A stretch of 41,634 bases of DNA from a virus, in IMG/VR virus record IMGVR_UViG_3300010885_021922, positions 1 through 41,634 of that record; one strand, 5' to 3'. This document shows positions 1-41,634 of this stretch, piece after piece. The notes beneath the pieces are model-generated. The model did not search any database. It had not been told where the DNA came from and worked only from the letters and a program-made list of their open reading frames with translations. Made by a program: the position numbers and the translations under genes. The first letter of the stretch is position 1. Every line of letters begins with the position of its first letter.

Positions 1-123
1 CAATTTTTCAATTTTTCAATTTTTCAATTTTTCAATTTTTCAATTTTTCAATTTTTCAATTTTTCAATTTTTCAATTTTTCAATTTTTCAATTTTTCAAT
101 TTTTCAATTTTTCAATTTTTCAA
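1..123. repeat. CAATTTTT octamer array, left end
   Basis: Fifteen perfect head-to-tail copies of the octamer CAATTTTT plus CAA. The identical 123 bp ends the window, so this is most simply the overlap of a circular assembly, and the true number of copies in the molecule is unknown because perfect short repeats collapse in assembly. It is extremely A+T-rich and lies in the non-coding hub between divergent early and late units. It could be a DNA-unwinding element, a protein-binding array or a packaging landmark; nothing in the sequence decides between these. Confidence 0.95.
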
Positions 124-166
124 CCTACCAGGATGACCCATGGTCTAACCTACCAAAATGACCCAT
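122..166 (+). promoter_or_regulatory. two 20-bp direct repeats carrying the ATGACCCAT motif
   Basis: Positions 122-141 and 147-166 are 20-bp direct repeats that differ only at two adjacent bases (GG versus AA), with starts 25 bp apart. Each ends in ATGACCCAT (133-141 and 158-166). The same nonamer occurs on the minus strand at 41094-41102 inside the early-promoter operator. They lie just upstream of the first late gene, so the regulator that binds the early operator may also bind here. Function is inferred. Confidence 0.5.
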
Positions 167-183
167 AACCCAAATTAAACAAT

Positions 184-214
184 GTGACACACTCGAACAG
201 TTAACTTGTATACT
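184..214 (+). promoter_or_regulatory. candidate promoter for the late/terminase unit
   Basis: A near-consensus -10 element TATACT lies at 209-214. A weak -35 candidate GTGACA lies at 184-189, with a long spacer of 19 bp. It is the only promoter-like sequence seen upstream of the first plus-strand gene. A start of transcription about 7 bp after the -10 box would fall almost on the ATG at 224, leaving almost no leader. Confidence 0.4.
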
Positions 215-4778: not shown

Positions 4779-5044
4779 GTAATTACAAGGCAATATCAGC
4801 CACAAGCCAAGTCAAATTGATGGGTGGAAAACTGAAGAGTATCTTCGTGTCAAGCGCAGGGAGTACCCCAAAGATCACCGTGTACGACTCAGGCATTGCC
4901 AGTACCAGTGATCCTGTGGTTATCGCCGAGTTTGTGCCCGTGTCTGCTACGGTCTACAACTTTGGGTTCGACGGTCCGATGACAAATAACGGCATCTATG
5001 TCGTTCTCGCCGGCACGATCACAGCTACCGTAATATTTGAGTAA
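4775..5044 (+). CDS. small putative structural protein, 89 aa
   Basis: An 89-residue protein without charged clusters, rich in Ser, Thr, Val and Gly, and predicted to be nearly all beta strand (VKLMGGKLKSIFVSS, KITVYDSG, VVIAEFVPVSATVYNFGF). This pattern is common in small virion surface or decoration proteins encoded beside portals and fibres. The gene overlaps the portal stop by ATGA and is followed 3 bp later by the fibre gene. No certain family; a virion protein is the likely role. Confidence 0.65.
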   Translation: MSNYKAISATSQVKLMGGKLKSIFVSSAGSTPKITVYDSGIASTSDPVVIAEFVPVSATVYNFGFDGPMTNNGIYVVLAGTITATVIFE

Positions 5045-5047
5045 TTT

Positions 5048-8000
5048 ATGTCCCTACCTGACATCAAGATTTCTGAGTTGCCTCACGCAACTCTGCCACT
5101 TGGTGGCACGGAGGCCATGCCTGTTGTTCAGGGCAATGTAACTAAACAGGCTCCTGTTTCTGCAGTAACCGGCCCTCCCGGCCCCACTGGTGCCACAGGT
5201 CCCACTGGCGCAACTGGAACTACCGGTCCCACTGGTTCTGTTGGTCCCACAGGCCCAACTGGTGCAACCGGGGCTACTGGTGCAACCGGGGCTACTGGTG
5301 CAACCGGGGCTACTGGCGCAACTGGGGCTACTGGTGCCGGGGCTACTGGTGCAACCGGGGCTACTGGCCCTGCCGGTCCGATGAGTGGCCCATCGTCAGC
5401 TATTGATGGTAATTTCGCATCGTTTGATGGAGTTACCGGAGCGATACTTAAAGACAGTGGTGTATCTGCCGCGAGTGCGTTTGTCCCTTACACAGGAGCG
5501 TCAAGTGCGGTTGATCTTAACAACAAGTCGCTCGTCAATGTAAGTCATTTGGGGATTGGCACAGCTGTTGTTCCCACTATCCTGAGTCGGTTCGTTGGGG
5601 ATAACGGCGCGAATTCTAGGTCATCTATTCGGGGCTATTCTAGCGATGCTAATAGCTCTTCTTGGAGGCTGACCAAGTTCCGGGGTGCAGTTGCCACTCC
5701 GCAGGTTCCCCAAAGTGGGGATAGCCTGGGCAAATTTGAGTTTGCGGGATATACAACTACCTCCTCAGATGGTCTGCCCAGTGCTACGTTGGAGGCAGTC
5801 ACTACGGAAACATGGGGCGCTACCGCAAGAGGCACAAAAGTACAGCTCAAGGTCACCGCAAATACGACGACTACTCAAGTCGTTGCGATGACGATAGACC
5901 AAGACAAGAGTCTAACTCTTCCGGGGGCACTAAGTGTCACAGGGCATACGACCTTTGAGGGTGTTACAAGCACTGGAGCTACCGGTACAGGCAAGCTTGT
6001 CTACGACACAAGCCCAACGTTGGCTACGCCGCTATTAGGCACACCGACTAGCGGTAACTTCTCCACAGGCACCTTTACCTGGCCTACATTCAATCAGAAC
6101 ACTACTGGCTCTGCTGCCACGCTCACCACATCTAGGAACATTGCGGGAGTCAGTTTCAATGGCTCTGCTGATGTCGCTATCCCTCTGGATAACCTATCTG
6201 ATGTCACTATTGCGAGTCCAGTTGTAGATGAGATCCTGAAATATAACGGGGCTAATTGGGTCAATGGGGCCGCATCCTCCATCAGTGCTGGATACGGCAT
6301 TGAGTACTTTAACGCTACCCCACAGATCACCGCAGCGGGCACGAATAACGCCATAGCTATATTCACGTTATCGGCGACACCTATCACCACTACCGAGCAG
6401 ACGACAACCTCCACTTCAATAGTTGGGACAGCAGTATCGACTTCTTGGCTATCTACGGCACTCGGTAGAACTACTATTGACGCTGGTTCTTGGGACTACA
6501 CAGTGTTCGCTGGAGTGAGTAGTGTGGGTGGGGCGACGACAACCCTCTCCCGGCAGATGTATGCTGCGTTGCCCTTTGTGACAGGGACTGTAACCACAAC
6601 AGGCACAGGCACTACTAGAACCGCAACTGCCTCAGCGGGAACGCCATTCGCTACCTCTGCGATAACCGCCTCGGGGACTGTCACCCTGGCGTCCTATCTT
6701 CAGACACCGCAGGGCTTGTATCAAATCTCCGCAAGAACCTCTGACACGGTAGTGACGATAGTTACACTATCCACCTACGCTAACGAGTCTGCGGTGGCCG
6801 GTACGGTCTGGAAGTTGTTATTCGCCACAGGCCAAACCCCCAATCTGACGACGACGATAACTCAGTACGACATTCTCACTGTCCAGCCAGCGTTCACGAT
6901 AACCACTGCTACTAAGCTAGGGGCCATCACTTTCATTACCGGCACCAATGCTGGCCGAATAGTGACCACGACGTTCAATGGCACTACGCGAAATACGCAT
7001 ATGGCTTCGCCATTGGCTATCCTGCACAACCAGTTAGGCGGGCTGCAAGGCGGTACCTCGAATGAGCAGTACCATCTGACAGATGCAGAGTACACCGGGA
7101 CGGGAACCGGGAACTTTGTGAGGCTAAATAGCCCGACGCTGACGGGTACGCTGAGTGCGAGTGGTGATGCCTCTATCGGTGGTACTGCTGCGGCTCACCA
7201 AGTAGAAATAAGCGGAAACGGCACCGGTACTGGGGGCGGGGCGGGTATCGTAATAAGGAACGCGGGCGGGGCTAATACAAGTCTAGGTAATTATTCTTTC
7301 TTGACTGGTACAGCCTACTCAGATGTAAGTCGCCTTTCCGCAGAGAACGGGCTTACTATCGGGAAGTTTAGCGGCCTTACTACATGGCTTGCTATTAACG
7401 GCACAACCGGCGCAATCACCACCAACAACAACACCCTCAACACCGGCTCTGGCTCCATCACCACCACCGGGACGCTGAGTGCAGGAGCTACGAGTGTTAC
7501 TACGCTGGCGGCGAGTGGTGATGCAACACTGTCGCAAACCTACTACAACCTCGGATCGAGTTTAGGTGGTGGCGCTGGTTGGTATCAAGGCTACAACATC
7601 ACTAACGCTACAGGATATAAAAATCTATTAACCGGGGCAGTAGGTGGCTGGGCGTATGCTTCTGGCGACATTGTTGCATACACCAACACAAGTCAAACCG
7701 CAGGGACGGCAGCAGTTGAGCGACTGAGAATAAGCACAGCGGGAGTCGTCACCATCCCGGGGGCGCTGGGGCTTGGCAGAGCGCCTACAACAAAACTCGA
7801 CCTTTACGGCGACGATCAAGTGCTCGGGATCATTCAAGACCCCGGAGCCAGTGGCAACTCAACCATAAATATGACTGCCGCTGGTGGGGCGAATTACAGC
7901 GCACTCACGCTTGACGGGCTGAGTATCTATAAGCGTACCGATGGTGGGGCCGTGATTCATATTGGCCCTGACACTGTAGCCGCCAACGCAACAGCAAAAT

Positions 8001-27794: not shown

Positions 27795-28254
27795 GAGGTT
27801 CTTTGTGTTTCAGGTTCCTTACCGCAGCAGCAATGTCCTTGCCTGTATGGATAAAACTTTTATCACAAAGCACCGCTGCCTCCTCCAACGCAGCATGACG
27901 AGTGTAGTAACTGTAGCGTTGCAGTACGGCATTTTTGACAATCAGGCGTTCTAACTCTGCCGGTACTTCACCCTTTTTATACCGCATTTGCTGGCTGGTG
28001 CAAAAGCACAAGAGTGTGGACACATAGCAATAACTCTCCCCATCGGGCCTGTTTTCCAACACGCACCAATCTTCCGAGTTGCCCACAGCCATGGTTGGCT
28101 CGAAGGCGATTTCGTAGTCATCGGGTACGTCGATCCTGCACAGATACGATCCGACTTCATCGTGCTGGATGGTCCATTCCTTGGGCACGGGCGCAGCATC
28201 CTGTCGGTTGATGGCAAGGCTCAGGGCCAGTTGGGTTGCTTGGGATTTGTTCAT
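27787..28254 (-). CDS. hypothetical early protein, 155 aa
   Basis: A 155-residue cytoplasmic-type protein with several Cys (SYLCRIDVPDDYEIAFEP, YCYVSTLLCFCTSQQMRYKKGE) and no recognised domain. It starts with MNKSQATQLALSLA, which resembles the start of the gp88-like protein at 41039. It has an AGGA ribosome site. It is the last gene of the leftward replication operon and overlaps the rightward Rz gene by 8 bp; no intrinsic terminator is seen at this convergent junction. Confidence 0.6.
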   Translation of the reverse strand: MNKSQATQLALSLAINRQDAAPVPKEWTIQHDEVGSYLCRIDVPDDYEIAFEPTMAVGNSEDWCVLENRPDGESYCYVSTLLCFCTSQQMRYKKGEVPAELERLIVKNAVLQRYSYYTRHAALEEAAVLCDKSFIHTGKDIAAAVRNLKHKEPLI

Positions 28255-28257
28255 GGT

Positions 28258-28341
28258 CTATCCTGTAAAAGAATGAAAGTCTAGCGAAGTGAATGGGGGC
28301 TTATTCGGCATCGAGGGGCGTAACCTTTCGAGTAGGCTCAT
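28258..28341 (-). CDS. possible 27-residue ORF
   Basis: A 27-residue ORF (MSLLERLRPSMPNKPPF and ten more) whose ATG overlaps the stop of the upstream gene (ATGA) and which ends 3 bp before the next gene. The coupling and its fit in an otherwise gene-free 80-bp gap make translation possible, but nothing else supports it; it could be a leader or spacer. Confidence 0.3.
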   Translation of the reverse strand: MSLLERLRPSMPNKPPFTSLDFHSFTG

Positions 28342-28535
28342 TTCCCATCCTCCTTAGTCAGCATACCGATGTACCTTTTTAATCTGCTGATCCGATCATT
28401 GTTGTAACCCACAAGTGCTGCGGCAAACTCCTTTGCTGTCTCTGCCTCGAGCTTCGCCAGTTCAGCCACCATGAGTTCTGCGCTTGCCACTTCGAGTGGG
28501 GTCAGTTTGCGAAATAATTTCTTTAGCCAATTCAT
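28338..28535 (-). CDS. small phage protein, 65 aa, helical
   Basis: A 65-residue protein with an amphipathic basic start (MNWLKKLFRKLTPLEVASAEL) and two helices (EAETAKEFAAALVGYNNDRISRLKRYI). The arrangement KLFRKxTPLEVA...YNxxRIxRLxxYI is familiar from small proteins in phage replication regions, of unknown role. It lies directly after the helicase gene with an AAGGAG ribosome site. Confidence 0.65.
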   Translation of the reverse strand: MNWLKKLFRKLTPLEVASAELMVAELAKLEAETAKEFAAALVGYNNDRISRLKRYIGMLTKEDGK

Positions 28536-28546
28536 TTCATCACTCC

Positions 28547-29956
28547 TTACATTTTCCTTGATATTCGATATTGCTTTACCGCCTCGCGCAGACCTGATTG
28601 CGTCTGCGCCTTTTGGTCAAGCGCCAATGCTTGCGCTTGATCCATCGTGTCAAGCATCAAGATACGATGACAGATTACAGGTGCCCCCTGACCTTGGCGC
28701 CTGATTCGCGCAGTGAACTGCTCGTATAGATCCAGACTCCAGTTCAACCCATACCAGACCACGATGTGACCAGTGTCCTGTAGACCGTCGATACCATGCC
28801 CCATAGAAGCAGGGTGCCCGATCATCAGGGGGCAATCCCCACTCTTCCATCGGCGCATCGCCTCAATCAAGGACGATTCGCTTTTACACTCAGTCAGATT
28901 GATTGGGCGAATCTTCTTGAACCGGGTCATGATCCTCTCAGCATCTGAGCGATATGCGTAAGAGCATAGGACAGGTTGCCCCTGGGCCTCATCGAGCACC
29001 TCCTCGAGCGCGTCGAGTTTGAGATCATGCACAGGCTCCCACAGAGGCATACCTGCCACGGGATACATGGCGCCGTTGCTAAATTGCAAACATTTATTTG
29101 TCAGTGACGCCTGATTGAACAGGTCAACCTCTGCACCACTGTCGAGCTTAATAAATAGTTCCCGCTCCATCTTGTCGTACATGATCCTGAGATCGTCTGG
29201 CATCTCAATCTCGATATCGTTCACCCGAAGGTCAGGAAGGGGGTTGTAGTCAGCCGCAGACATCTCCAGTGTGATTTCCCCTATCAACTGTTTGATCGTT
29301 GATTCTGTGTCATCGTAGGCCACTTCCTTATAGGGGCCGATCTTGCGGTAGAACCGGGTGCGAAATGCAGTCTTGCTGACCCCGAGGCGAAAGCCCCGGT
29401 CAACAACCAGGAACTGACCATGCAGATCCTTATACCCGTTGCTTGCGGGGGTGCCCGTGAGGCCAGTTGCCCAATCGAATTTGTCCAACACAGTCTTGAT
29501 CGACCTGACCCTCTCTGTGCCTGAGTTTTTCATCTTACTCACTTCATCCCATACGATGCCATTGAATGGGATTGGTAGATTCTTCTTGGTGAAGTAGGTC
29601 TGAAGCGACTCTGCCAACCACTGCAGATTCTCATAGTTGATCATGTAGATGTCAGCGGGACGCAGCAGAGCACGGATGCGTTGGTCACGGGTGCCAGTAA
29701 CCATCGAGAAGGTCAGATGCTTGGTGTGCCCCCATTTAGCAGCCTCTTGGCGCCACACAAGCCTGATAACCCGGATGGGGGCCACGATAATCACACCACG
29801 TAAGAACCGCTGGGCCAGCAGATGCGCCAGCGTGGTGAGCGTGATCACCGTCTTACCTAAACCCATATCAAGCCACAACATCGACTGTGGGTGGGTGCAT
29901 TGGAAGTTGACTGCTCTTTTCTGGTAGTCGAATAGGAGGTCGGGGGTAAGGGTCAT
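28547..29956 (-). CDS. SNF2-type DEAD/DEAH helicase
   Basis: A 469-residue superfamily 2 ATPase. Motifs in order: FDYQKRAVNF (Q-like), MGLGKT (motif I, about 31-36), WDEVSK (motif II), LTGTP (motif III), and in the second RecA domain YGLNWSLDLYEQFTARIRRQGQ (motifs V-VI with both arginines). This compact SNF2-like helicase accompanies VRR-NUC, DUF2815 and DUF2800 genes in many phages and prophages and probably remodels replication or recombination intermediates. The GAGG of its ribosome site lies in the end of the preceding mini-ORF, whose stop directly abuts its ATG. Confidence 0.9.
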   Translation of the reverse strand: MTLTPDLLFDYQKRAVNFQCTHPQSMLWLDMGLGKTVITLTTLAHLLAQRFLRGVIIVAPIRVIRLVWRQEAAKWGHTKHLTFSMVTGTRDQRIRALLRPADIYMINYENLQWLAESLQTYFTKKNLPIPFNGIVWDEVSKMKNSGTERVRSIKTVLDKFDWATGLTGTPASNGYKDLHGQFLVVDRGFRLGVSKTAFRTRFYRKIGPYKEVAYDDTESTIKQLIGEITLEMSAADYNPLPDLRVNDIEIEMPDDLRIMYDKMERELFIKLDSGAEVDLFNQASLTNKCLQFSNGAMYPVAGMPLWEPVHDLKLDALEEVLDEAQGQPVLCSYAYRSDAERIMTRFKKIRPINLTECKSESSLIEAMRRWKSGDCPLMIGHPASMGHGIDGLQDTGHIVVWYGLNWSLDLYEQFTARIRRQGQGAPVICHRILMLDTMDQAQALALDQKAQTQSGLREAVKQYRISRKM

Positions 29957-30342: not shown

Positions 30343-32171
30343 AAGGTGATCTTCTCCACCTCCCTCACGTAGTAGTCGTAATCCACAGGCAACACACCAG
30401 CATCTTTGATGTCATTGCACACCTGTACACCCCACCCGGCCTCCACTCTGATCTGCCGCCATTCCTTCTTGTCTTTGAGGGGTGGCATCCACTTTGTCAG
30501 ACGACCACCACCCACGGCAATGTAGTATCGCGTGGTGTTCTGCAGTTGCTCCAGGATCGTGTCCTTCTCAATGGACAGATAGCTGGTGCGGGGGATCTTT
30601 GCCCTCAGCATGAAGTCGTAGATATCGGGCCATGCCTCCACAGTCCTCCTGATCGACACTCCATGAAGCAACACCAACTCAGCCACCTTGGGGACCACCA
30701 GTGCGCTATGATTTTGTGACCAATCCATGTCGTACTCATAGCAACCCTTGCGCTTGACCTTGCCCTCGGCAGACTCCGCGATGTAGTTGTTTACATCGCG
30801 AATAAACATTCTCTTATAGGTAACCTGCTCGAGTTGCAGCCTTGTGCGATGCTGCCATGCCTCGCAAGCAAGATCGACCAGAGCCTTCTTGTCCCTCGGA
30901 ACACGCACTGTCACACCATCGGTGTTTAACTGGATCAGGGATAACCCCTCAATATGAAGTAGACCTTCAGTTAGTAGACACAAAAGAAGTTGACCATTCA
31001 ATGTGATCCTCATCGTAAACAGTGGGTCGTAAAAGACACTGAATTTATTGTTCGAGTCGCCGTAGACTCCGTTGAGTGCAAGTTTAAGCATTGCGTTCTC
31101 GGTTGTTCCTTTGGCGTGGTGCTTGCGCTGCTCATAGAGATCAGCGTAGATGGCGCAGAACTCTGAGCCGAGGTGTTCTGGGTAGAACCCATTCGCAATC
31201 GCCAAGTTTGGATAATAAGATTGGACATCGAGGTCCACGATGACGAATTCATCATCGGAGGTGATGATCCGGTTTTCAACGCTACCGTGGATTCCTCCGA
31301 GGCCGAAGACAAACTCGAATCCTTCGATGTTTGCTGTGATGTCATTGAATACCCCTTTTGTCTCAGTTATGGTTTGTCCTTTGAGCCACTCAAGGATGCG
31401 TTGGAACTCGGGCTGGTCGAAGTGCAGCCAGTGCAGGATGGCGTCCTTGAGCACGATCACCGGCCGCTTGGTCTGCCTCGGTGTGCGCCCATCAGGGCCA
31501 TACTCATAGCAAGGAACTCCTGCTTCTTCTAGCTTCATGATGAAGTAGTCCTTCCCAATCTTGGTGTCGTTATGGTTCATAAAGTCCCGTGAATATTTCT
31601 GAGTCAATTGCTCACGGAACTTGATCATGTCGAGTGTGTGGTGGTAGAACAGTTTGGTCATGGACACATCGTGTGCGTTGTACCGCTTGAGCAGGGGTAA
31701 CTGGTCCTGAGTCAGATCAGTGCCCACAGGGAACGGTAAGTCCTGGATGCTATCTGCCCTCATGTTGAACTCGAGCACCTTCAAACTGGTAGACCGCGCC
31801 CGGTTGTCAAAGTGGTGGATCTTGAACAGATCGATCTGTTCAACAACCCGGTCCTTGGGGTAAACCTGATGCACCCACTTGTCATCATCCTGAGAGTCGA
31901 TGATTGATTGGGCCTTGAGGTAGAGGGTCTTGGCATCAGACTTACCCATGCGGGCCAGGGTATGCAGGATCGGGTAGTCGAACCCAAGATTGTTAAACCC
32001 TATCATCCTGGCTCCAGTGTCCCCCAAATGCACCAGGAAATCGATGATGGCGCCAGAATCATTGCGCCATGGGCTGATCTCATATGCAAGCCTCATCGGC
32101 CCCAAAGTCTGTTCGAACGCTATTGTGAATACATTTGGGTATGTTTCACAATCGTAGATCCAATCGGTCAT
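30330..32171 (-). CDS. family B DNA polymerase with 3'-5' exonuclease
   Basis: A 613-residue replicative polymerase. Exonuclease motifs: YDCETYPNVF (Exo I, D-x-E), MIGFNNLGFDYPIL (Exo II, N...FD) and YNAHD (Exo III). Polymerase motifs: DLDVQSYYPNLAI (motif A), LKLALNGVYGDSNNKFS (motif B, K...NxxYG) and LNTDGVTV (motif C, a D-T-D-G variant as TDG with Asn before it). ATG 32171 is chosen because GGAG lies 8 bp upstream; the in-frame GTG 32207 lacks one. Note that motif C reads N-T-D-G rather than D-T-D-G, so the first acidic residue is Asn. It is short for a family B enzyme (T4 is about 900). Confidence 0.85.
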   Translation of the reverse strand: MTDWIYDCETYPNVFTIAFEQTLGPMRLAYEISPWRNDSGAIIDFLVHLGDTGARMIGFNNLGFDYPILHTLARMGKSDAKTLYLKAQSIIDSQDDDKWVHQVYPKDRVVEQIDLFKIHHFDNRARSTSLKVLEFNMRADSIQDLPFPVGTDLTQDQLPLLKRYNAHDVSMTKLFYHHTLDMIKFREQLTQKYSRDFMNHNDTKIGKDYFIMKLEEAGVPCYEYGPDGRTPRQTKRPVIVLKDAILHWLHFDQPEFQRILEWLKGQTITETKGVFNDITANIEGFEFVFGLGGIHGSVENRIITSDDEFVIVDLDVQSYYPNLAIANGFYPEHLGSEFCAIYADLYEQRKHHAKGTTENAMLKLALNGVYGDSNNKFSVFYDPLFTMRITLNGQLLLCLLTEGLLHIEGLSLIQLNTDGVTVRVPRDKKALVDLACEAWQHRTRLQLEQVTYKRMFIRDVNNYIAESAEGKVKRKGCYEYDMDWSQNHSALVVPKVAELVLLHGVSIRRTVEAWPDIYDFMLRAKIPRTSYLSIEKDTILEQLQNTTRYYIAVGGGRLTKWMPPLKDKKEWRQIRVEAGWGVQVCNDIKDAGVLPVDYDYYVREVEKITLCLC

Positions 32172-34960: not shown

Positions 34961-35836
34961 ATGTCAGCTTATTACAACGAGATAGACCCTTATGCTGTTC
35001 AGTGGATGAGGAACCTAATCACAGAAGGCTTGATTGCCAAAGGAATCGTGGATGATAGGTCAATATCAGATGTCAAACCTTCCGAGTTGGCTGGTTTCAT
35101 CCAATGTCACTTCTTCGCAGGTATCGGAGGCTGGAGCCACGCTCTCAGACTCGCAGGATGGGGTGATGACAGACCAGTGTGGACAGGATCATGCCCTTGT
35201 CAACCTTTCAGCACGGCAGGCAAAGGAGCAGGAACTACTGACGAGCGGCACCTATGGCCGCATTGGTTCCATCTTATACGGGCAGTCAGACCTCAAGTTG
35301 TCTTTGGTGAACAGGTTGAAGCAGCGATTAACCACGGGTGGCTCGACCTTGTTCAAGATGACCTGGAAGGAGAAGGTTACGCCTTCGCTCCAGTCGGTCT
35401 ACCTGCTGCGTGCGTCGGGGCACCGCACATCAGACAGCGACTCTGGTTCGTGGCCGACTCCAGATTGTCACAACAGCAGAGATGGGACGAATCTCAGGAA
35501 GGACTGCAACATAGGAGAGGGGATGCACGGGGTGAGCCTACATCATGCTGTTCACCTCTTGGCGCAGATGGCATCTTGGCCGACAACAACAACACGGGAT
35601 TGGAAAGACGGCAGTCAGTGCGACAACGTACCACTGAACAGTCTCCTTGGCAGGACGGTCTGGTTAACTGGCTCCCCTGTCGCGATGGAAAAGCAAGGCC
35701 AGTTGAACCCGGCACATTCCCGCTGGCTCATGGGATACCCAATCGAGTGGGACGCTTGCGCGCCTATGGTAACGCGATTGTCCCGCAAGTCGCTGCTGAA
35801 GTGATTAGAGCCTACATGGAGTGTCAACCCAAATGA
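34961..35836 (+). CDS. C5 cytosine-specific DNA methyltransferase
   Basis: A 291-residue phage cytosine methyltransferase. Motif I FAGIGG at 52-57 (AdoMet binding), motif IV GSCPCQPFS with catalytic Cys80, an EQV in place of the usual ENV of motif VI (Glu117), RQRLWFVA as motif VIII, and YGNAIVPQVAAE as motifs IX/X near the C-terminus. It would methylate phage DNA and protect it from host restriction. The region between motifs VIII and X (about 165-255) is a poorly structured Arg/Gln/Ser-rich stretch that coincides with the strongest part of an overlapping reading frame. Ribosome site AGAGAG; the stop overlaps the next ATG (ATGA). Confidence 0.9.
   Translation: MSAYYNEIDPYAVQWMRNLITEGLIAKGIVDDRSISDVKPSELAGFIQCHFFAGIGGWSHALRLAGWGDDRPVWTGSCPCQPFSTAGKGAGTTDERHLWPHWFHLIRAVRPQVVFGEQVEAAINHGWLDLVQDDLEGEGYAFAPVGLPAACVGAPHIRQRLWFVADSRLSQQQRWDESQEGLQHRRGDARGEPTSCCSPLGADGILADNNNTGLERRQSVRQRTTEQSPWQDGLVNWLPCRDGKARPVEPGTFPLAHGIPNRVGRLRAYGNAIVPQVAAEVIRAYMECQPK
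35034..35804 (+). CDS. overlapping +1-frame ORF inside the methyltransferase gene (dual coding)
   Basis: A 256-residue ORF wholly inside the methyltransferase gene in the +1 frame. It does not look like a random shadow: it has protein-like segments that I recall from many phage and prophage ORFs overlapping similar methyltransferases, namely LVNLSARQAKEQELLTSGTYG, GSTLFKMTWKEKVTPS, SWPTPDCHNSRDG, SWPTTTTRDWKDG and a C-terminal NPAHSRWLMGYPIEWDACAP. The repeated WPT...D.KDG units and the WLMGYPxEWDxCAP end are the hallmarks. No strong ribosome site was found, so translation might use coupling or frameshifting. Function unknown. Confidence 0.5.
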   Translation: MPKESWMIGQYQMSNLPSWLVSSNVTSSQVSEAGATLSDSQDGVMTDQCGQDHALVNLSARQAKEQELLTSGTYGRIGSILYGQSDLKLSLVNRLKQRLTTGGSTLFKMTWKEKVTPSLQSVYLLRASGHRTSDSDSGSWPTPDCHNSRDGTNLRKDCNIGEGMHGVSLHHAVHLLAQMASWPTTTTRDWKDGSQCDNVPLNSLLGRTVWLTGSPVAMEKQGQLNPAHSRWLMGYPIEWDACAPMVTRLSRKSLLK

Positions 35837-38289
35837 ACACCGTCCCAATCATGCAACACCCATCCTCAATTGACGCATACATCAGACACGGATGGAGCCT
35901 GATTCCGATTCCACCGGGAACGAAGGGACCGACAACGGTAGGGTGGAATCTCAAAGGAAACGCAGTCAAGATCTCGGACGATCTACCGTATGGTTCAGGC
36001 ATCGGGCTGGCCCATGCATACAGTGGCACGATGGCGTTTGACATTGATCATTGGGACAACACCCTTGAGATACTACGTCAGCGAGGGATCGACCTTCAGA
36101 TTCTGTATGACGCCCCCGATGCGGTGATCATCGACTCTGGCAGACCGGGTCACGGCAAACTGTTGTACTCGATGCCTTTTGGTCTGGTTCTACCAACCAA
36201 GAAGAAAGTCGACCAGCACATTACAGCATTTGAGTTGCGTTGCGGTACTGCAGGGGGACTTACGGTTCAGGATGTACTGCCACCGTCAATCCACCCCATC
36301 ACCAATCAACCTTATCGGTGGGCCGGTCTTGGCAATTGGCAACGACCACCAACCATCCCTCAACCCCTGCTCGATCTGTGGCATGAGATGCTGGCGCAAA
36401 ATGATGCCCCATCATCCACCGGGGTGACCCCCTCTGAGCCACTTGATTGGGACGAGATCACATCGGCAGTGAATGCAGTAGATCCGGACTGCTCGAGAGA
36501 TGAGTGGATCACCATAGGCATGGCACTGCACACCACAGGGGAACCGGGATTCAAGGTATGGAGGGAGTGGTCAGTCAAGGGAACCAAGTTTCCAGGGGAG
36601 CGCGAGATCGTCAAGCAGTGGACAAGCTTCGATTCGGGCAAAGCGACCACGGTCAAGATGGGCAGCTTGTTCCACATAGCCAAGCAGCATGGATGGTCCA
36701 AACCACCCATTGATGTGACCGGACTCTTCCCATCGAATGTGATCACCCCAGAGCAGCTACTGGCGGGACTTCACGCACCTATCCCCAACATCGACCTTAC
36801 CCTGTTCCCCAAGGTGCTGGCGCACCACGCCCACCAAGTGAGTGAGCAAATAGGGTGTGACCCCTTGGTGCCACTTTTTTCCGGCCTTGCAGCGGTGTGC
36901 GGGGTGATCGACGCACGCATCAGACTCGAGTTGATGAATGGTTACAGGGTGCCTCCTGTGTTATGGTTAATGACCATCGGTGCGCCGGCCGACAAGAAGA
37001 CACCGGGTGCGAAGCCAATGATGCACACCCTTGGCGACCTTGAGCGAGAAGACATGCCCGCATACGCCAAGGCACTCAAAGATTGGGAATATGCCGAAGT
37101 GACATACGGTGCAGCCGATAAATCAAACGTCGAACTGCTCAAGAGTGCCGACTATGCAGCGGGGGTTACACCTCTGAACACTCTGCCACCTAAGCCAATC
37201 AAGCCCGTCCCCCTTCGCATCACTGTATCGGACATCACTTCTCAAAAGCTGGTCTATCACGTAGCGGAACGCCCTCGGGGTGTGCTGTGTCACCTCGACG
37301 AGATGAGTTCGTGGATACGCAAGATGGCAGACTCATCGTCAGGTGATGATAGAGCCACCTGGACACAAAGCTACGAGGCAAACGACTACATCGCAGACCG
37401 GGTAGGGACCGGGTCGACTACTTGCATCAATTTCGCAGTCAGCATATATGGAAACGTGCAACCCAAAGTACTTGAAAAGAACATCACATCATTGACCGGT
37501 GACGGGTTGCTGCAACGCTTTTTGTTTGCTAATCTGAGAGGGTCGTACACCAAATTAGGTGAGCCTGACATGCCCTGCGGATCTGAGGCGTGGGATAACT
37601 TGCTGCGCCTCACTCACGCACTGCCTCAGAGAATCTACACGATGAGTGACGGAGCCTACCGGGTATATCGTGAATTTCAGCGATGGTATGAGGGTGCAAA
37701 GCGCGACGAGCGACTGACGATGGCGGCAGATGATTACATGACAGCATTTGGCAAGCTCGAGGGCACTGCGGGCCGATTGTGTCTATTGTTTCATGTCATG
37801 GAGTCCCCATTCGACCCCCAAGTGTCGATTGATGTGGTGCAAAGAGTTGTGAAGCTCGTTAAGACGTACCTGATACCGTCCTTCCGGTTCACTCTTGGTG
37901 AAGTGGGCGGTATCGACACCTTAAGCTCTTTCCTATCTGACCTTGTCATCCAGTACTCGGATCAGTCTGTAATAAGCCTACGCGACATCAAACGATCAGC
38001 CAAGCGTCGATTTGAGAAAATGAATACCCAGGTAGTCACCGACATCGTTATTGCAGCAATGGTCGAAATGGAGGTCGCCGGGTGGGTGATTAGGACTGAT
38101 GACCTGACGAAAGAAAAACAAGGATATGCGACGTGGGCTATTAACCCGATCCTGGTCACAATCTTTGCGAGTCACCGCAAGTCAGTGATTGATGCAAAGA
38201 TGCGGATTAAAGAACAGATCATCAGTAGAACAGGATCCGAAAAAAAGCCCCATGTGCATGGGGCTAATGACCTGCAGGGAATGTTCTAG
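35833..38289 (+). CDS. primase-polymerase / DUF3987 helicase-like protein
   Basis: An 818-residue replication initiator-type protein. Residues about 5-170: Prim-Pol domain with the catalytic D-x-D as MAFDIDHWD and the HGKLLYS motif. Residues about 203-285: PriCT-2 type domain (ITSAVNAVDPDCSRDEWITIGMALH, VWREWSVKGTKF, GSLFHIAKQHGW). Residues about 318-750: DUF3987 helicase-like ATPase, with GAPADKKTPGAKP where a Walker A loop is expected (Lys in place of the second Gly) and GVLCHLDEMSSW as Walker B. It would make primers and unwind DNA for the phage polymerase. ATG 35833 overlaps the methyltransferase stop (ATGA) and is preferred over GTG 35821. The 3' end contains a terminator for the opposite strand. 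Confidence 0.85.
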   Translation: MNTVPIMQHPSSIDAYIRHGWSLIPIPPGTKGPTTVGWNLKGNAVKISDDLPYGSGIGLAHAYSGTMAFDIDHWDNTLEILRQRGIDLQILYDAPDAVIIDSGRPGHGKLLYSMPFGLVLPTKKKVDQHITAFELRCGTAGGLTVQDVLPPSIHPITNQPYRWAGLGNWQRPPTIPQPLLDLWHEMLAQNDAPSSTGVTPSEPLDWDEITSAVNAVDPDCSRDEWITIGMALHTTGEPGFKVWREWSVKGTKFPGEREIVKQWTSFDSGKATTVKMGSLFHIAKQHGWSKPPIDVTGLFPSNVITPEQLLAGLHAPIPNIDLTLFPKVLAHHAHQVSEQIGCDPLVPLFSGLAAVCGVIDARIRLELMNGYRVPPVLWLMTIGAPADKKTPGAKPMMHTLGDLEREDMPAYAKALKDWEYAEVTYGAADKSNVELLKSADYAAGVTPLNTLPPKPIKPVPLRITVSDITSQKLVYHVAERPRGVLCHLDEMSSWIRKMADSSSGDDRATWTQSYEANDYIADRVGTGSTTCINFAVSIYGNVQPKVLEKNITSLTGDGLLQRFLFANLRGSYTKLGEPDMPCGSEAWDNLLRLTHALPQRIYTMSDGAYRVYREFQRWYEGAKRDERLTMAADDYMTAFGKLEGTAGRLCLLFHVMESPFDPQVSIDVVQRVVKLVKTYLIPSFRFTLGEVGGIDTLSSFLSDLVIQYSDQSVISLRDIKRSAKRRFEKMNTQVVTDIVIAAMVEMEVAGWVIRTDDLTKEKQGYATWAINPILVTIFASHRKSVIDAKMRIKEQIISRTGSEKKPHVHGANDLQGMF
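38240..38265 (-). terminator. intrinsic terminator of the leftward early operon
   Basis: A perfect 9-bp stem (AGCCCCATG at 38246-38254, CATGGGGCT at 38257-38265) is followed on the minus strand by a run of six or seven T. It stops leftward transcripts that leave the HTH regulator gene at 38298. The element lies inside the coding end of the rightward primase gene, where it encodes KKPHVHGAN. Confidence 0.85.
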
Positions 38290-38297
38290 AAACCCCG

Positions 38298-38531
38298 TCA
38301 GGTGTCGGAGAGGGAGCCGACGAATGCATTATGAACCTCGGGGCATAAAGTCTCAAAGATTTGCAACACCTCGATGAGTCGACCTACCACAGCAGCCGGT
38401 GACCTTTCACCACTGATCCACTTCCTGAGGGTGGGCACTGGCACTCCGAGATACATCGCACACTCAGTGATTGACATGCGGCGACGCACCATAAGTTCCT
38501 TTATCTGCTGCGGAATTGTCATAGTATCCAT
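38298..38531 (-). CDS. helix-turn-helix regulator (XRE/Cro-like)
   Basis: A 77-residue protein with an HTH of the Cro/XRE type: IPQQIKELMVRRRMSITECAMYLGVPVPTLRKWISGERSP, in which SITECAMYLGVPVPTLRKWISG supplies both helices of the motif over about 22 residues. It is the last gene of the leftward early operon, followed by an intrinsic terminator, and may be the protein that binds the palindromic sites in the hub. ATG 38531 has GGAG 9 bp upstream; ATG 38522 is an alternative. Confidence 0.75.
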   Translation of the reverse strand: MDTMTIPQQIKELMVRRRMSITECAMYLGVPVPTLRKWISGERSPAAVVGRLIEVLQIFETLCPEVHNAFVGSLSDT

Positions 38532-38534
38532 GGG

Positions 38535-38597
38535 TTACTTCTCCAGCACGAGTATAAACAGTGCCACGATTATGAATAATACGAGTGTCGTAATCAT
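38535..38597 (-). CDS. possible 20-residue hydrophobic peptide
   Basis: A short ORF encoding MITTLVLFIIVALFILVLEK, a single membrane-spanning segment. It ends 3 bp before the HTH gene, and its last codons form the ribosome site of that gene. Its own ribosome site is weak. It could be a small membrane peptide or a leader; the hydrophobic pattern is unlikely to be pure noise but proof is lacking. Confidence 0.3.
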   Translation of the reverse strand: MITTLVLFIIVALFILVLEK

Positions 38598-38724
38598 GAT
38601 GTCGCAAGTTCAATCCTCGCTGGTATTGGTACTTTTTTGTATCTCAAGATATGTTTCCTTTCGTAAGTATTCCGGTTTCGATCAAATGCTGTTGCTATCG
38701 AGAATTGTTGTTATAGCCAGCGGC

Positions 38725-39075
38725 TCATCGTCGGGCATAGTTTTCCCGAGATTCTTGAGCAACTTGGTCCAGCCTGATGAACAAGGGGAACAAGCGCGGA
38801 TTTTCAATAATGTTGTTTTCATGTGTCATCTCTTTCTCAAGCGCAGCGATTGCAGCGTCAATACGACCTTGCTCGCACTCCTCTAGCCGATAACCGTTGT
38901 CGTTCATAAAGTGCAGCATCGACAGCGCCAGCTTCATCGCCGCACATTGCTGATTCATAATATTAGTGCGGGCGGCTAGGATTGCCCGGTCACACTCAAT
39001 TGCGTCTGCCGCAGCTATCCTGTCTTCAAGTGTGCAGCCGACAGGGTGGCGCAGTCGTTGTTGTAGTGTCGTCAT
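38725..39075 (-). CDS. hypothetical early protein, 116 aa
   Basis: A 116-residue, all-helical-looking protein (LEDRIAAADAIECDRAILAARTNIMNQQCAAMKLALSMLHFM, EECEQGRIDAAIAALEKEMTHE). A strong GGAGG ribosome site stands before its ATG, which overlaps the upstream stop (ATGA). No family is recognised. The 127 bp between its end and the next small ORF (38598-38724) hold nothing convincing. Confidence 0.6.
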   Translation of the reverse strand: MTTLQQRLRHPVGCTLEDRIAAADAIECDRAILAARTNIMNQQCAAMKLALSMLHFMNDNGYRLEECEQGRIDAAIAALEKEMTHENNIIENPRLFPLFIRLDQVAQESRENYARR

Positions 39076-39248
39076 TTCTTACCTCCCGGTTTACGTATCG
39101 TGTCAGGTATAGAATTCGCGTCGGTCAGACGCTCGATTGTGATTACTCGATCACTGCACACGGGGCAGCGCTTCTCGCGAAAGACCTCGTGGCCCCTGTC
39201 GAACACCGATATTGTTTTCAGCTTGATCTCGCATTGTGTGCATTTCAC
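39072..39248 (-). CDS. small zinc-ribbon protein (NrdR-N-like), 58 aa
   Basis: With GTG 39248 as start the protein opens with M/V-KCTQC and has a second pair RCPVC 26 residues later, a C-x2-C / C-x2-C zinc ribbon with the layout of the NrdR N-terminal domain (MKCPxC...RRRECxxC..RFTTxE; here CPVCSDRVITIERL). GTG 39248 overlaps the stop of the upstream gene (GTGA), which supports it over the longer frame that begins inside that gene at 39329. It could be a small transcription factor or adaptor. Confidence 0.6.
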   Translation of the reverse strand: MKCTQCEIKLKTISVFDRGHEVFREKRCPVCSDRVITIERLTDANSIPDTIRKPGGKK

Positions 39249-39397
39249 TTCACACCCCACAGTCCAAGGGCGAAGCAAGTGAATAGGAACCCCACACCGC
39301 ACAGAAAACTCAATATCCGCCCAACCCACTTGTCGATGTCGTCGGTGTAGGGGTCAGCTTCTTTCGGTTCTTCTTCTGCAAACCATACTTTCATCAT
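39245..39397 (-). CDS. small membrane protein, 50 aa
   Basis: A 50-residue protein with an acidic N-terminal half (MKVWFAEEEPKEADPYTDD) and one C-terminal membrane segment (ILSFLCGVGFLFTCFALGLWGV). Its ATG overlaps the stop of the gene upstream (ATGATG) and its stop overlaps the GTG of the zinc-ribbon gene. The chain of overlaps strongly suggests translation although the gene is below usual length filters. A host-membrane or superinfection role is possible. Confidence 0.6.
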   Translation of the reverse strand: MMKVWFAEEEPKEADPYTDDIDKWVGRILSFLCGVGFLFTCFALGLWGVK

Positions 39398-39624
39398 GGA
39401 GTCTCCAATATTTCTGTTTCAATGCGCTCAACATCATCAGGTGTGAGCTTCCTTGTCAGCCACGGTGCCTCCCGGCCACGGCGGTCAAGCACTGTGAATT
39501 CGATTTCTGCGTAGCCGTAGCAGTCTTGGTCGCTATCGCAGTCGGGGCCGAGTGGTTCTTGCACGAAGCAGTGGTCCACCCGAATGATGCAGGGTATGCC
39601 TGACACGGTTGATACGATCGTCAT
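39394..39624 (-). CDS. hypothetical early protein, 76 aa
   Basis: A 76-residue acidic protein with several Cys (IPCIIRVDHCFVQEPLGPDCDSDQDCYGYAEIEFTVLDRRG) and a helical C-terminus (LTPDDVERIETEILET). ATG 39624 overlaps the upstream stop (ATGA), so the longer frame from 39651 is not used. The beta-strand and Asp/Cys pattern could bind metal; no family is recognised. Confidence 0.6.
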   Translation of the reverse strand: MTIVSTVSGIPCIIRVDHCFVQEPLGPDCDSDQDCYGYAEIEFTVLDRRGREAPWLTRKLTPDDVERIETEILETP

Positions 39625-39830
39625 ATCTTTACCCTCAGTTGGTGGTCCCATTCAGCAAGCCAAGATGTCGACATGTCTTCAGTGTCGGGGTGACCCTCCG
39701 ATGCGTCGGCAATCACACGTACAGCGTCCGACAGTGCGGCCAGGAGAGTCGACATAGCCTGAGGTCGTGGTTTGGGGTGAATGTACAACATGCGCTCCAA
39801 TTCCTCTGGCGCCAGTACTAAGATGCTCAT
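39621..39830 (-). CDS. hypothetical early protein, 69 aa
   Basis: A 69-residue protein of mixed helical character (LAPEELERMLYIH, MSTLLAALSDAVRVIADASEG, WLAEWDHQLRVKI). A GAGAGGGA ribosome site precedes ATG 39830, and its stop overlaps the next ATG. Unknown function. Confidence 0.6.
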   Translation of the reverse strand: MSILVLAPEELERMLYIHPKPRPQAMSTLLAALSDAVRVIADASEGHPDTEDMSTSWLAEWDHQLRVKI

Positions 39831-39844
39831 TTTGGTATTCCCTC

Positions 39845-40033
39845 TCAGTGTGGTAAGTCGGCCAGCTTGTCATAACACAAGCACAAGAGTCCACATACGA
39901 CAGATGTGATTAGGGCAAACCCTACATTGCGGAGTTCACAGAATCCCGCAAACAGGATCGCGACCCCAATCAGTACGATCGCGATGAATCCAAAGATCCT
40001 GGACAACATCGCGTAATATGATAGGTGGTTCAT
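39845..40033 (-). CDS. small membrane protein with two membrane segments
   Basis: A 62-residue protein with two hydrophobic segments (IFGFIAIVLIGVAILFAGF and VGFALITSVVCGLLCLC) and short polar ends, thus a likely inner-membrane hairpin. The ATG overlaps the upstream stop (ATGA). It might modify host membrane functions early in infection; this is inference from topology and position. Confidence 0.65.
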   Translation of the reverse strand: MNHLSYYAMLSRIFGFIAIVLIGVAILFAGFCELRNVGFALITSVVCGLLCLCYDKLADLPH

Positions 40034-40326
40034 ATCATCCCCTTAAGTTCAATCTTTACCCGCTTTGCAACATCACCGCGCCATGCTTTGGCATTGCTCA
40101 GGAAATAGAGCACGATAGACTTTCCATCATCGGCACCGTAGTAGTCCCTGGAAGTATTCATTGTTGACATGGCTTGAAGGTAGGGGACCGCGCCAAAGTA
40201 TGGTTTTTTCCAATCAGCTTGAATTTCTTGGGCGATAGCGCGAAGTGTGCGGATCTTGAAGTCACCTAACAGCCCATCAATGCATTTGGGGTCAGATCCC
40301 ACTCTGACTTGGGGTTTATAGCTCAT
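40030..40326 (-). CDS. conserved-looking phage protein, 98 aa
   Basis: A 98-residue soluble protein. YFGAVPYLQAMSTM, DYYGADDGKSIVLYFLSNAKAWRGDVAKRVKIELK form a pattern I recognise from uncharacterised phage early proteins (YFGAVPYLxAM ... GxDxGKSIVxYFLxNAxxWRG). No catalytic site is evident. It stands after an attenuator-like hairpin and overlaps the next gene by ATGA. Confidence 0.65.
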   Translation of the reverse strand: MSYKPQVRVGSDPKCIDGLLGDFKIRTLRAIAQEIQADWKKPYFGAVPYLQAMSTMNTSRDYYGADDGKSIVLYFLSNAKAWRGDVAKRVKIELKGMI

Positions 40327-40359
40327 GGTAATTTTCCTTTACAGTTATTGGTATCGGCC

Positions 40360-40392
40360 AAAAATAGCCCGTAAGCCCGCTAGAACGGGCTT
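40360..40392 (-). terminator. attenuator-like terminator behind the gp88-like gene
   Basis: On the minus strand AAGCCCG (40392-40386) and CGGGCTT (40379-40373) form a perfect 7-bp stem. A third arm CGGGCT (40371-40366) directly before a T5 run (40364-40360) can pair instead with the first arm. Two alternative hairpins, only the second next to the U-run, suggest partial termination between the first and the remaining early genes. Confidence 0.6.
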
Positions 40393-40403
40393 GCAGTCGA
40401 CCT

Positions 40404-41039
40404 TTAGTGCAGCTTGTAGCTTACTGGCTTATCTGACCAGCAAGCCCTACAGTCTCCACATTTGCCGGCCTGATTCGGTGCAGGGCAAACCTGAGAATTA
40501 ATAGCTATCACCCGGTGAACATTTGATACAGCTATTCCCTTTACCCCTTGTAGTGATTTTGGCACTACGACGGGGACGTCAGGATACATAGCTGAAAGTC
40601 GAATTGTGAGATTCGATGGGATTACATTGTCAGCGCAATACTGCTTGACTATTGAGTATTCCCGTGTAGGAAGCCAAAACTTGCAGTCTGGCAGCTGGCG
40701 CGCAATCTCGGCTATTTTGCCCAGGTGGGCCGCATCCTGTAGATCTCCGCTATCGTGCCAGCGAAATAGCGGCGCTGACCCAATCAATATGACCATTGCG
40801 TCGACCCAATCAGGATCTGGTATCGAGTCGAGTCGGGCATGCTGTGCTGGCTCGACGGTTGACGCATACATCGAATAAAAACCCTTATTCGCATAGCACA
40901 TGGAGCAAATGCTACCCGCAATTTTAGACATCTTAAACCCGACTTTACATGCGAGGGTAGGCAAGCTGTAGCTGTCACATGGCATTTTACTGGTGGAGGT
41001 TAAAGATCCTGCTATTGATTTGGCCTGGGTTTTGTTCAT
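40404..41039 (-). CDS. gp88-family phage protein
   Basis: A 211-residue Cys-rich protein matching the phage gene-product-88 family: MPCDSYSLPTLACKVGFKMSKIAGSICSMCYANKGFY at about 19-55, then FRWHDSGDLQDAAHLGKIAEIARQLPDCKFWLPTRE, RLSAMYPDVP, and the end CPAPNQAGKCGDCRACW. The conserved Cys sets could bind metal or an Fe-S cluster, and RWHDSGD and WLPTRE look like active-site motifs, but the activity of the family is not known to me. It is the first gene of the leftward early operon, with an AAAGG ribosome site and a strong regulated promoter 40 bp upstream. Confidence 0.8.
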   Translation of the reverse strand: MNKTQAKSIAGSLTSTSKMPCDSYSLPTLACKVGFKMSKIAGSICSMCYANKGFYSMYASTVEPAQHARLDSIPDPDWVDAMVILIGSAPLFRWHDSGDLQDAAHLGKIAEIARQLPDCKFWLPTREYSIVKQYCADNVIPSNLTIRLSAMYPDVPVVVPKSLQGVKGIAVSNVHRVIAINSQVCPAPNQAGKCGDCRACWSDKPVSYKLH

Positions 41040-41081
41040 TTTGAGTTACCTTTACGAGTGGGTTTAAGTGCTGACGTGTTT

Positions 41082-41110
41082 AGTATCGACCCAATGGGTC
41101 ATCTTGTCAA
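41082..41110 (-). promoter_or_regulatory. early leftward promoter with operator in the spacer
   Basis: On the minus strand TTGACA (41110-41105), a perfect -35 box, is followed by a 17-bp spacer and GATACT (41087-41082) as -10. The spacer contains the 13-bp palindrome GACCCATTGGGTC (41100-41088) which directly abuts the -10 box. A bound repressor would exclude RNA polymerase. The promoter drives the gp88-like gene and the whole leftward early operon. Confidence 0.8.
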
Positions 41111-41135
41111 TAAGAGAATTGTAAAGATGATGTAA

Positions 41136-41165
41136 ACCCATTGGGTCTAGTGGCGCCACTGGCGC
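41136..41165. promoter_or_regulatory. operator copy 2 next to second palindrome copy 1
   Basis: ACCCATTGGGT (41136-41146) is followed by AGTGGCGCCACT (41149-41160, a perfect 12-bp palindrome) and the overlapping GCGCCACTGGCGC (41153-41165). The first equals the core of the early-promoter operator 48 bp away, so co-operative binding or looping is possible. Confidence 0.6.
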
Positions 41166-41309
41166 AGGGATGAGGGTAGGTGCGTATCGTCATCTTTTAG
41201 AAAAGAGATTAAAAAATAATGTGTATTCGTGTGCGAGGTGCATCTGGGGACAGGATGCACCCATCGGGGTATTAGGTGTCGCCAGTGGCGCCAGCACTAG
41301 GGGTTGTCT

Positions 41310-41341
41310 GCGCCAGTGGCGCCAGTGTGCACCCATTGGGT
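41310..41341. promoter_or_regulatory. second palindrome copy 3 next to operator copy 3
   Basis: GCGCCAGTGGCGC (41310-41322) and, 8 bp on, ACCCATTGGGT (41331-41341). It mirrors the pair at 41136-41165 in the opposite order. A further core CGCCAGTGGCG stands between them at 41280-41290. Confidence 0.6.
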
Positions 41342-41355
41342 TTTAACTGTGGCTT

Positions 41356-41456
41356 GGGCGCTGGGCGCTGGTCGCTGGGCGCTGGGTGCTGGGTGCTGGG
41401 CGCTGGGTGCTGGTGCTGGTGCTGGGTGTTTGTACTGGGTGTTTGTACTGGGTGCT
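41356..41456 (+). repeat. G-rich heptamer array, potential G-quadruplex
   Basis: Eight consecutive heptamers of the type GGG(C/T)GCT (one as GGTCGCT) at 41356-41411, two hexamers GGTGCT at 41412-41423, two identical 13-mers GGGTGTTTGTACT at 41424-41449 and a last GGGTGCT at 41450-41456. The regularly spaced GGG runs with 4-nt loops fit G-quadruplex formation on the plus strand. Confidence 0.85.
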
Positions 41457-41511
41457 GCGCCGGGGTCCCGTACCCTGCCGTCTGCGATTGGTATGGGCAG
41501 ACCCCGTGAAC

Positions 41512-41634
41512 CAATTTTTCAATTTTTCAATTTTTCAATTTTTCAATTTTTCAATTTTTCAATTTTTCAATTTTTCAATTTTTCAATTTTTCAATTTTTC
41601 AATTTTTCAATTTTTCAATTTTTCAATTTTTCAA
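41512..41634. repeat. CAATTTTT octamer array, right end
   Basis: Fifteen perfect CAATTTTT copies plus CAA, identical to positions 1-123. The duplication of exactly the same 123 bp at both ends indicates a circular or circularly permuted molecule, or a terminal repeat, with an array whose real length cannot be told from this assembly. Confidence 0.95.

Follow-up and report, generated by a model that had tools for sequence, protein, structure and literature searches.

In the Cro-C2 regions of phages lambda and P22, operators overlap an early promoter and the regulators are Cro/C1-type helix-turn-helix (HTH) proteins. Aca autorepressors such as Aca2 are small HTH proteins that repress their own promoters, mycobacteriophage stoperators are asymmetric repressor sites spread over the genome, and MqsA antitoxins carry an N-terminal zinc-binding, toxin-neutralising domain with MqsR encoded adjacently. 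The MqsA HTH binds ACCT-N3-AGGT and TAACCT-N3-AGGTTA via Asn97 and Arg101, as given in PMC4901048; PMC5422877 and PMC4894380 are further sources on this HTH and its operators.

Lytic phages that rely on the host polymerase must replace early by late transcription, and how they do so is obscure for most uncultured groups. In the window described here, which is the whole stretch of 41,634 nucleotides that was analysed (IMG/VR record IMGVR_UViG_3300010885_021922), one small region of a P22-like phage brings together a candidate protein, its putative DNA site, and a pair of promoters whose geometry is defined. We favor the explanation, which we regard as reasonably probable, that this is an early/late transcription switch with an HTH autorepressor, serving early-to-late timing in a lytic phage rather than lysogeny.

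As in the Aca systems, a small HTH gene is last in a phage operon, and a palindrome that may be its operator is nested in the promoter of that operon, but no anti-CRISPR was identified here, the palindrome is different, and there is an array of 3–12 sites, with further sites close to the late promoter; it may represent the end-of-operon autorepressor theme extended by an array and, probably, by an effect on the late promoter as well. It resembles the lambda and P22 Cro-C2 regions in having an operator over an early promoter and a Cro/C1-type HTH protein, and P22 C2 is among the PDB matches of the HTH profile, but there is no integrase, no second repressor was seen, the 11-bp core is centered on a single base, and the junction is early/late rather than early/early. 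As with stoperators, many copies of one putative repressor site are present per phage genome, but these are palindromic and, instead of being dispersed genome-wide, lie in a single cluster of at most 1.2 kb that holds every site in 11/11 motif-bearing records. The likeness to MqsA is in the fold class, the geometry of two half-sites separated by N3, and the outer bases of the sites, but the phage sites have ACCC-N3-GGGT, with the same spacing and one base different in each half, and the 77-residue phage protein corresponds to the HTH part only; no toxin-family match was found among the early genes scanned.

Organization of the intergenic region

An identical 123-bp repeat is present at both ends of the window, which means that the record either is circular or was assembled as a circle; positions 41040–41634 and 124–223 therefore form one intergenic region. 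It is flanked by a leftwards-transcribed early operon, of which GP88 is the first gene (40404–41039, minus strand; Pfam GP88, E 2.7e-23), and by the rightwards-transcribed TerS and TerL genes of this complete phage (TerS, 224–826, plus strand; Pfam Sf6_terminase, E 4.6e-13). There are three exact ACCCA-N-TGGGT sites (cores at 41089–41099, 41136–41146 and 41331–41341) and no more in the 41,634 bases, all three of them between the two operons; the core ACCCANTGGGT is expected 0.035 times under a Markov-1 model. We refer to the 13-bp palindromes as P1 (GACCCATTGGGTC, 41088–41100), P2 (AACCCATTGGGTC, 41135–41147), whose center is 47 bp from that of P1, and P3 (CACCCATTGGGTT, 41330–41342). The helical phasing of P1 and P2 is suggestive only (p 0.054, n = 8 lineages). 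Imperfect tandem repeats of CTGGGTGC, rich in TGGGT half-sites, follow at 41355–41457 (plus strand), and the terminal repeat itself is (CAATTTTT)15.4 at 41512–41634 (plus strand), the same sequence as window positions 1–123; it stands where the relatives have a short AAATTTTTTCAAAA tract.

Closely packed sites next to AT-rich DNA, in an intergenic region of this length, could also mark a replication origin, in which the palindromes and TGGGT repeats would be iterons bound by an initiator, the AT-rich CAATTTTT repeat an unwinding element, and the overlap with the promoter a form of initiator autoregulation. Cumulative GC skew reaches its minimum within the window's first kb, but GC skew tracks transcription direction too and fails to come back to zero by the opposite end of the window. 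The sites are moreover placed relative to two promoters, nested in one and phased to the other, and the spacing of the remaining sites is irregular. We therefore consider an origin unlikely and prefer the transcription switch.

The same region contains a second palindrome type, CGCCANTGGCG, with three copies (41154, 41280 and 41311) within 41151–41324. It is an odd palindrome that shares the CCANTGG core and is nearly private to the window phage; as a candidate for a second conserved motif it was rejected, being present among the loci counted only in the window (three copies), L097 (two) and L141 (one).

A palindrome nested in the early promoter

A sequence-only reading of this DNA had pointed to a minus-strand promoter whose spacer encloses a palindrome touching the -10 box, and the sequence confirms this: the minus strand from 41110 to 41082 reads TTGACA-AGATGACCCATTGGGTC-GATACT, with a -35 hexamer at 41105–41110, a 17-bp spacer, and a -10 hexamer at 41082–41087. 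P1, with 6-bp arms and a 1-bp center, occupies 13 of the 17 spacer positions and adjoins the -10 hexamer, and P2 is upstream of the -35 box. The promoter matches the consensus at 10/12 positions. Promoter-like sites as such are not enriched (11 between 30000 and 41634, compared with 11.8 expected from shuffles), and P1-type palindromes with at most one mismatch have three matches (in two places), whereas 100 shuffles average 0.03; the P1 palindrome is beyond chance. Its membership of an array, the 123-bp terminal repeat, and the retention of the nesting in relatives, described below, were not part of that reading.

In the switch that we propose, host sigma-70 RNA polymerase would act at TTGACA-17-GATACT early in infection and transcribe the leftwards early operon, the last gene of which would yield a small Cro/C1-type HTH protein that accumulates. 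A dimer of this protein on ACCCA-N-TGGGT at P1, between the -35 and -10 hexamers, would block the promoter and thereby repress its own synthesis, and P2 and P3, as further sites of the array, would raise occupancy. The region of about 700 bp that separates the early from the late operon in a lytic P22-like podophage would then constitute the switch as a whole.

Conservation of the array and promoter

We scanned IMG/VR for two ACCCAWTGGGT sites separated by 20–50 bp, using no protein information, and recovered 59 contigs. When the TerS, TerL, portal, primase and HTH proteins of the window were used as tblastn queries, 47 of these contigs fell in the same P22-like group (44 with TerS or TerL, and three with primase and HTH); the remaining 12 have two to four motif copies each. 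A control palindrome of the same composition gave ten IMG/VR contigs with exactly two copies each, none of which is in the group. The motif can also be used as a sequence tag that pulls this phage group from metagenomes without a protein search. It is present in 11 of 22 records examined and absent from the other 11, and among exact palindromes with 5-bp arms and a 1-bp center in the control regions, the ACCCA type is represented 286 times, TTTTT 26 times and CATTG seven times. The consensus of 213 phage sites is T(52%)-R-ACCC-ANT-GGGT-Y-A. This is a real, conserved regulatory region, and P1 is one of the matching sites common to the whole group of aquatic bacterial viruses.

Relatives retain the nested arrangement as well. 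In an alignment anchored at the site most distant from TerS, most of them have TTGACA-N5-ACCCANTGGGT-TAGAAT/TATAAT, with an exact TTGACA at equal distance from the palindrome and TATAAT, TAGAAT or TATACT as the -10 hexamer; the spacer is mostly 16 bp, compared with 17 bp in the window. Of 222 distinct sites, 23 are nested in a promoter scoring at least 10/12 on the early strand and none is on the late strand; among random positions in the same regions the rate is 0.2%. Counted by locus, 23/39 have one at 10/12 or better and 31/39 at 9/12 or better, with the nested promoter absent at the lower threshold from eight of the 39; counted by motif-bearing TerS lineage, the numbers are 7/11 and 9/11, and one of these nine, the L101/L113 lineage, is a weak match. 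The denominator of 11 leaves out a twelfth TerS cluster, L164, which lacks the motif. The proposal in the sequence-only reading that this is a repressed early phage promoter gains support from the retention of its geometry.

The named relative is Phage DSL-LC05 (OR003940; TerL 67.5%, primase 57%), a metagenome-assembled P22-like phage with a gammaproteobacterial host on record that, in the partial text of the paper, its authors call lytic; the strings promoter, operator, palindrom and repressor have no occurrences in that text. The distant named phages P26218, VvAW1 and BA3 have no motif copies, and positions 36634–41634 have no DNA similarity to named phages. In the open-licence literature, the strings ACCCATTGGGT and ACCCAATGGGT are present in four and three papers, respectively, all of them off-topic judging by title and opening of the abstract, and topic searches of that literature returned nothing on the group of the window phage.

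Because the binder is a candidate only and DSL-LC05 has a gammaproteobacterial host on record, the phage might have hijacked a host regulator, with the motif as its operator. The same motif is however found in divergent phages from many samples, and bacterial genomes seldom contain paired sites (31 stretches, taking one genome per species), such that this explanation is the most improbable of those we considered.

The early promoter was initially read as either a lysogeny-type or a timing switch in a phage without a visible integrase, and of these alternatives timing is the one upheld. A lysogeny switch, with a temperate phage using the palindrome as operator for a CI-like repressor, is suggested by the nested operator, the several operators between divergent promoters, and the Cro/C1-type HTH protein. 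None of the 11 records, however, has a match to PF00589 or PF00239 (tyrosine and serine recombinases; control genomes with a match, 14/14 and 10/14), and no prophage was found: the 31 bacterial-genome stretches with paired sites (one genome per species) include none with a homologue of the phage core. The HTH gene itself ends the operon that would be repressed, and DSL-LC05, as noted, is called lytic. We regard lysogeny as very unlikely, and an early-to-late timing function as the better reading of the region.

The candidate regulator

The HTH gene (38298–38531, minus strand) was proposed as the last gene of the operon, and its position bears this out: a terminator-like hairpin with a T run is immediately behind it (38246–38265, minus strand), and the primase gene beyond is convergent to the leftwards early operon. 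The 77-residue product contains an HTH_3 domain (26.0 bits, cut-off 23), which assigns it to the Cro/C1 type (Xre). Its AlphaFold2 model is all-helical with a pLDDT of 88.9, and its Foldseek neighbors, none of which matches at E ≤ 0.001, are the Cro/C1-type proteins HigA2, DdrO, Aca2 and P2 C. In a search of the PDB with the HTH profile, the MqsA HTH (3fmy) is the best natural sequence match, with a modest E of 1.3e-4, second after the designed protein 8tac. Lys37, which aligns with MqsA Arg101, is present in 17 of 18 aligned homologues; the exception is L141, one case only, which has Asn at this position and is the only relative with primase and HTH but without ACCCANTGGGT.

Every motif-bearing locus that extends as far as the primase (23/23) encodes a homologue of the HTH protein, and searches over the full length of 32 records located one in 16. 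The homologues came from these loci and records, and short-peptide patterns in IMG/VR with the HTH query alone gave no relatives. Its standing as the best regulator candidate, which had been proposed at the outset, is strengthened by this co-occurrence and by an MqsA-like HTH paired with a site of like shape. TerS accompanies the motif almost as consistently; co-occurrence therefore cannot single out the HTH protein, and the case for it as binder draws on the geometry of the sites, their placement in the promoter, and the position of the gene in the operon. We infer that the HTH protein binds P1, that binding there represses, and that binding on the late side may activate.

The probable late promoter

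After the TerS-proximal site, the relatives have a -10 of the TGnTAnnnT type and then a conserved ACTATG that includes the TerS start codon. Of 37 distinct loci, 32 have ACTATG no more than 250 bp from the last site, with distances from the site center of 45–46 (four loci), 54–57 (14), 65–66 (seven) and 78–114 bp (seven); the three near classes account for 25/32, with 7/32 outside them, and one TerS cluster alone displays distances of 45, 55 and 65 bp. When each distance is counted once per TerS cluster (90% identity), distances of 70 bp or less, a cut set after seeing the distances, give R 0.91 at 10.5 bp with a best period of 10.1, and all ranges together give R 0.62 with a best period of 9.7; clustering at 70% identity gives p 0.02 for all ranges. 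This spacing looks like helix-face phasing, as expected of a protein on one face of the DNA.

DSL-LC05 is among the relatives with an exact site here (33446), spaced at 54 bp, whereas the window itself has no exact site at the late promoter. It has an intact half-site ACCCA at 161–165 (plus strand, within TGACCCAT; a single case), and a full site built from its TGACCCA would be centered at 166, 55 bp before the ACTATG at 221–226, which is the commonest distance in the relatives. The probable late promoter has the -10 hexamer TATACT at 209–214 (plus strand), of the type kept in relatives, and ACTATG lies very close to where the transcript is predicted to begin. TerS translation would start at ATG 224, about 7 nt past the predicted -10 and with no evident ribosome-binding site, so TerS mRNA may be leaderless across the whole group.

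The proximity of TerS to the array raises a further alternative, that the array is a packaging site (a pac or cos region) bound by TerS. TerS homologues are present in 46 loci, the window and named phages included, at a median of 58 bp from the nearest site, and TerS and the motif are nearly always found together. A packaging site need neither occupy a promoter spacer nor be phased to a promoter, however, and there are TerS homologues without the motif (L141, L145), which leaves packaging decidedly unlikely. Under the transcription switch, the TerS-nearest site in most relatives would be on one helix face at about -45, -55 or -65 of the TerS promoter, and because of this placement the HTH protein probably regulates late transcription too, perhaps as an activator.

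Other arrays and accessory genes

Clear arrays of other kinds are present in two of the 11 motif-less TerL relatives examined. L163 (TerL 63%) has six GTTTA-NN-TAAAC palindromes at its early/late junction (28220–28590), and its last early gene (31423–31719) codes for a protein with a DnaA domain IV HTH; L161 has eight copies of AAATGACC in both orientations at its early/late junction (4986–5520). No array above the shuffled maximum was found in L141, L145, L147, L148, L152, L155, L156, L157 or L164. These cases, in which L163 and L161 hold different arrays and L163 also has a different last early gene, hint at a possible joint exchange of array and regulator. A more far-reaching proposal, which we offer tentatively and hold to be doubtful, is that one 77-residue Cro/C1-type protein could be the whole early-to-late clock of these widespread lytic podophages, with nested sites shutting the early promoter and phased sites at about -45, -55 or -65 switching on the TerS promoter, and with the array and the end-of-operon DNA-binding gene together forming an exchangeable specificity cassette.

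The GP88-family gene is accessory, with at least 585 IMG/VR relatives in many unrelated phage contexts; because of this, footprinting upstream of gp88 homologues was dropped, the nearest gp88 relatives also being in unrelated contexts. We also note a gene coding for a C5-cytosine DNA methyltransferase (34961–35836), located between replication genes.
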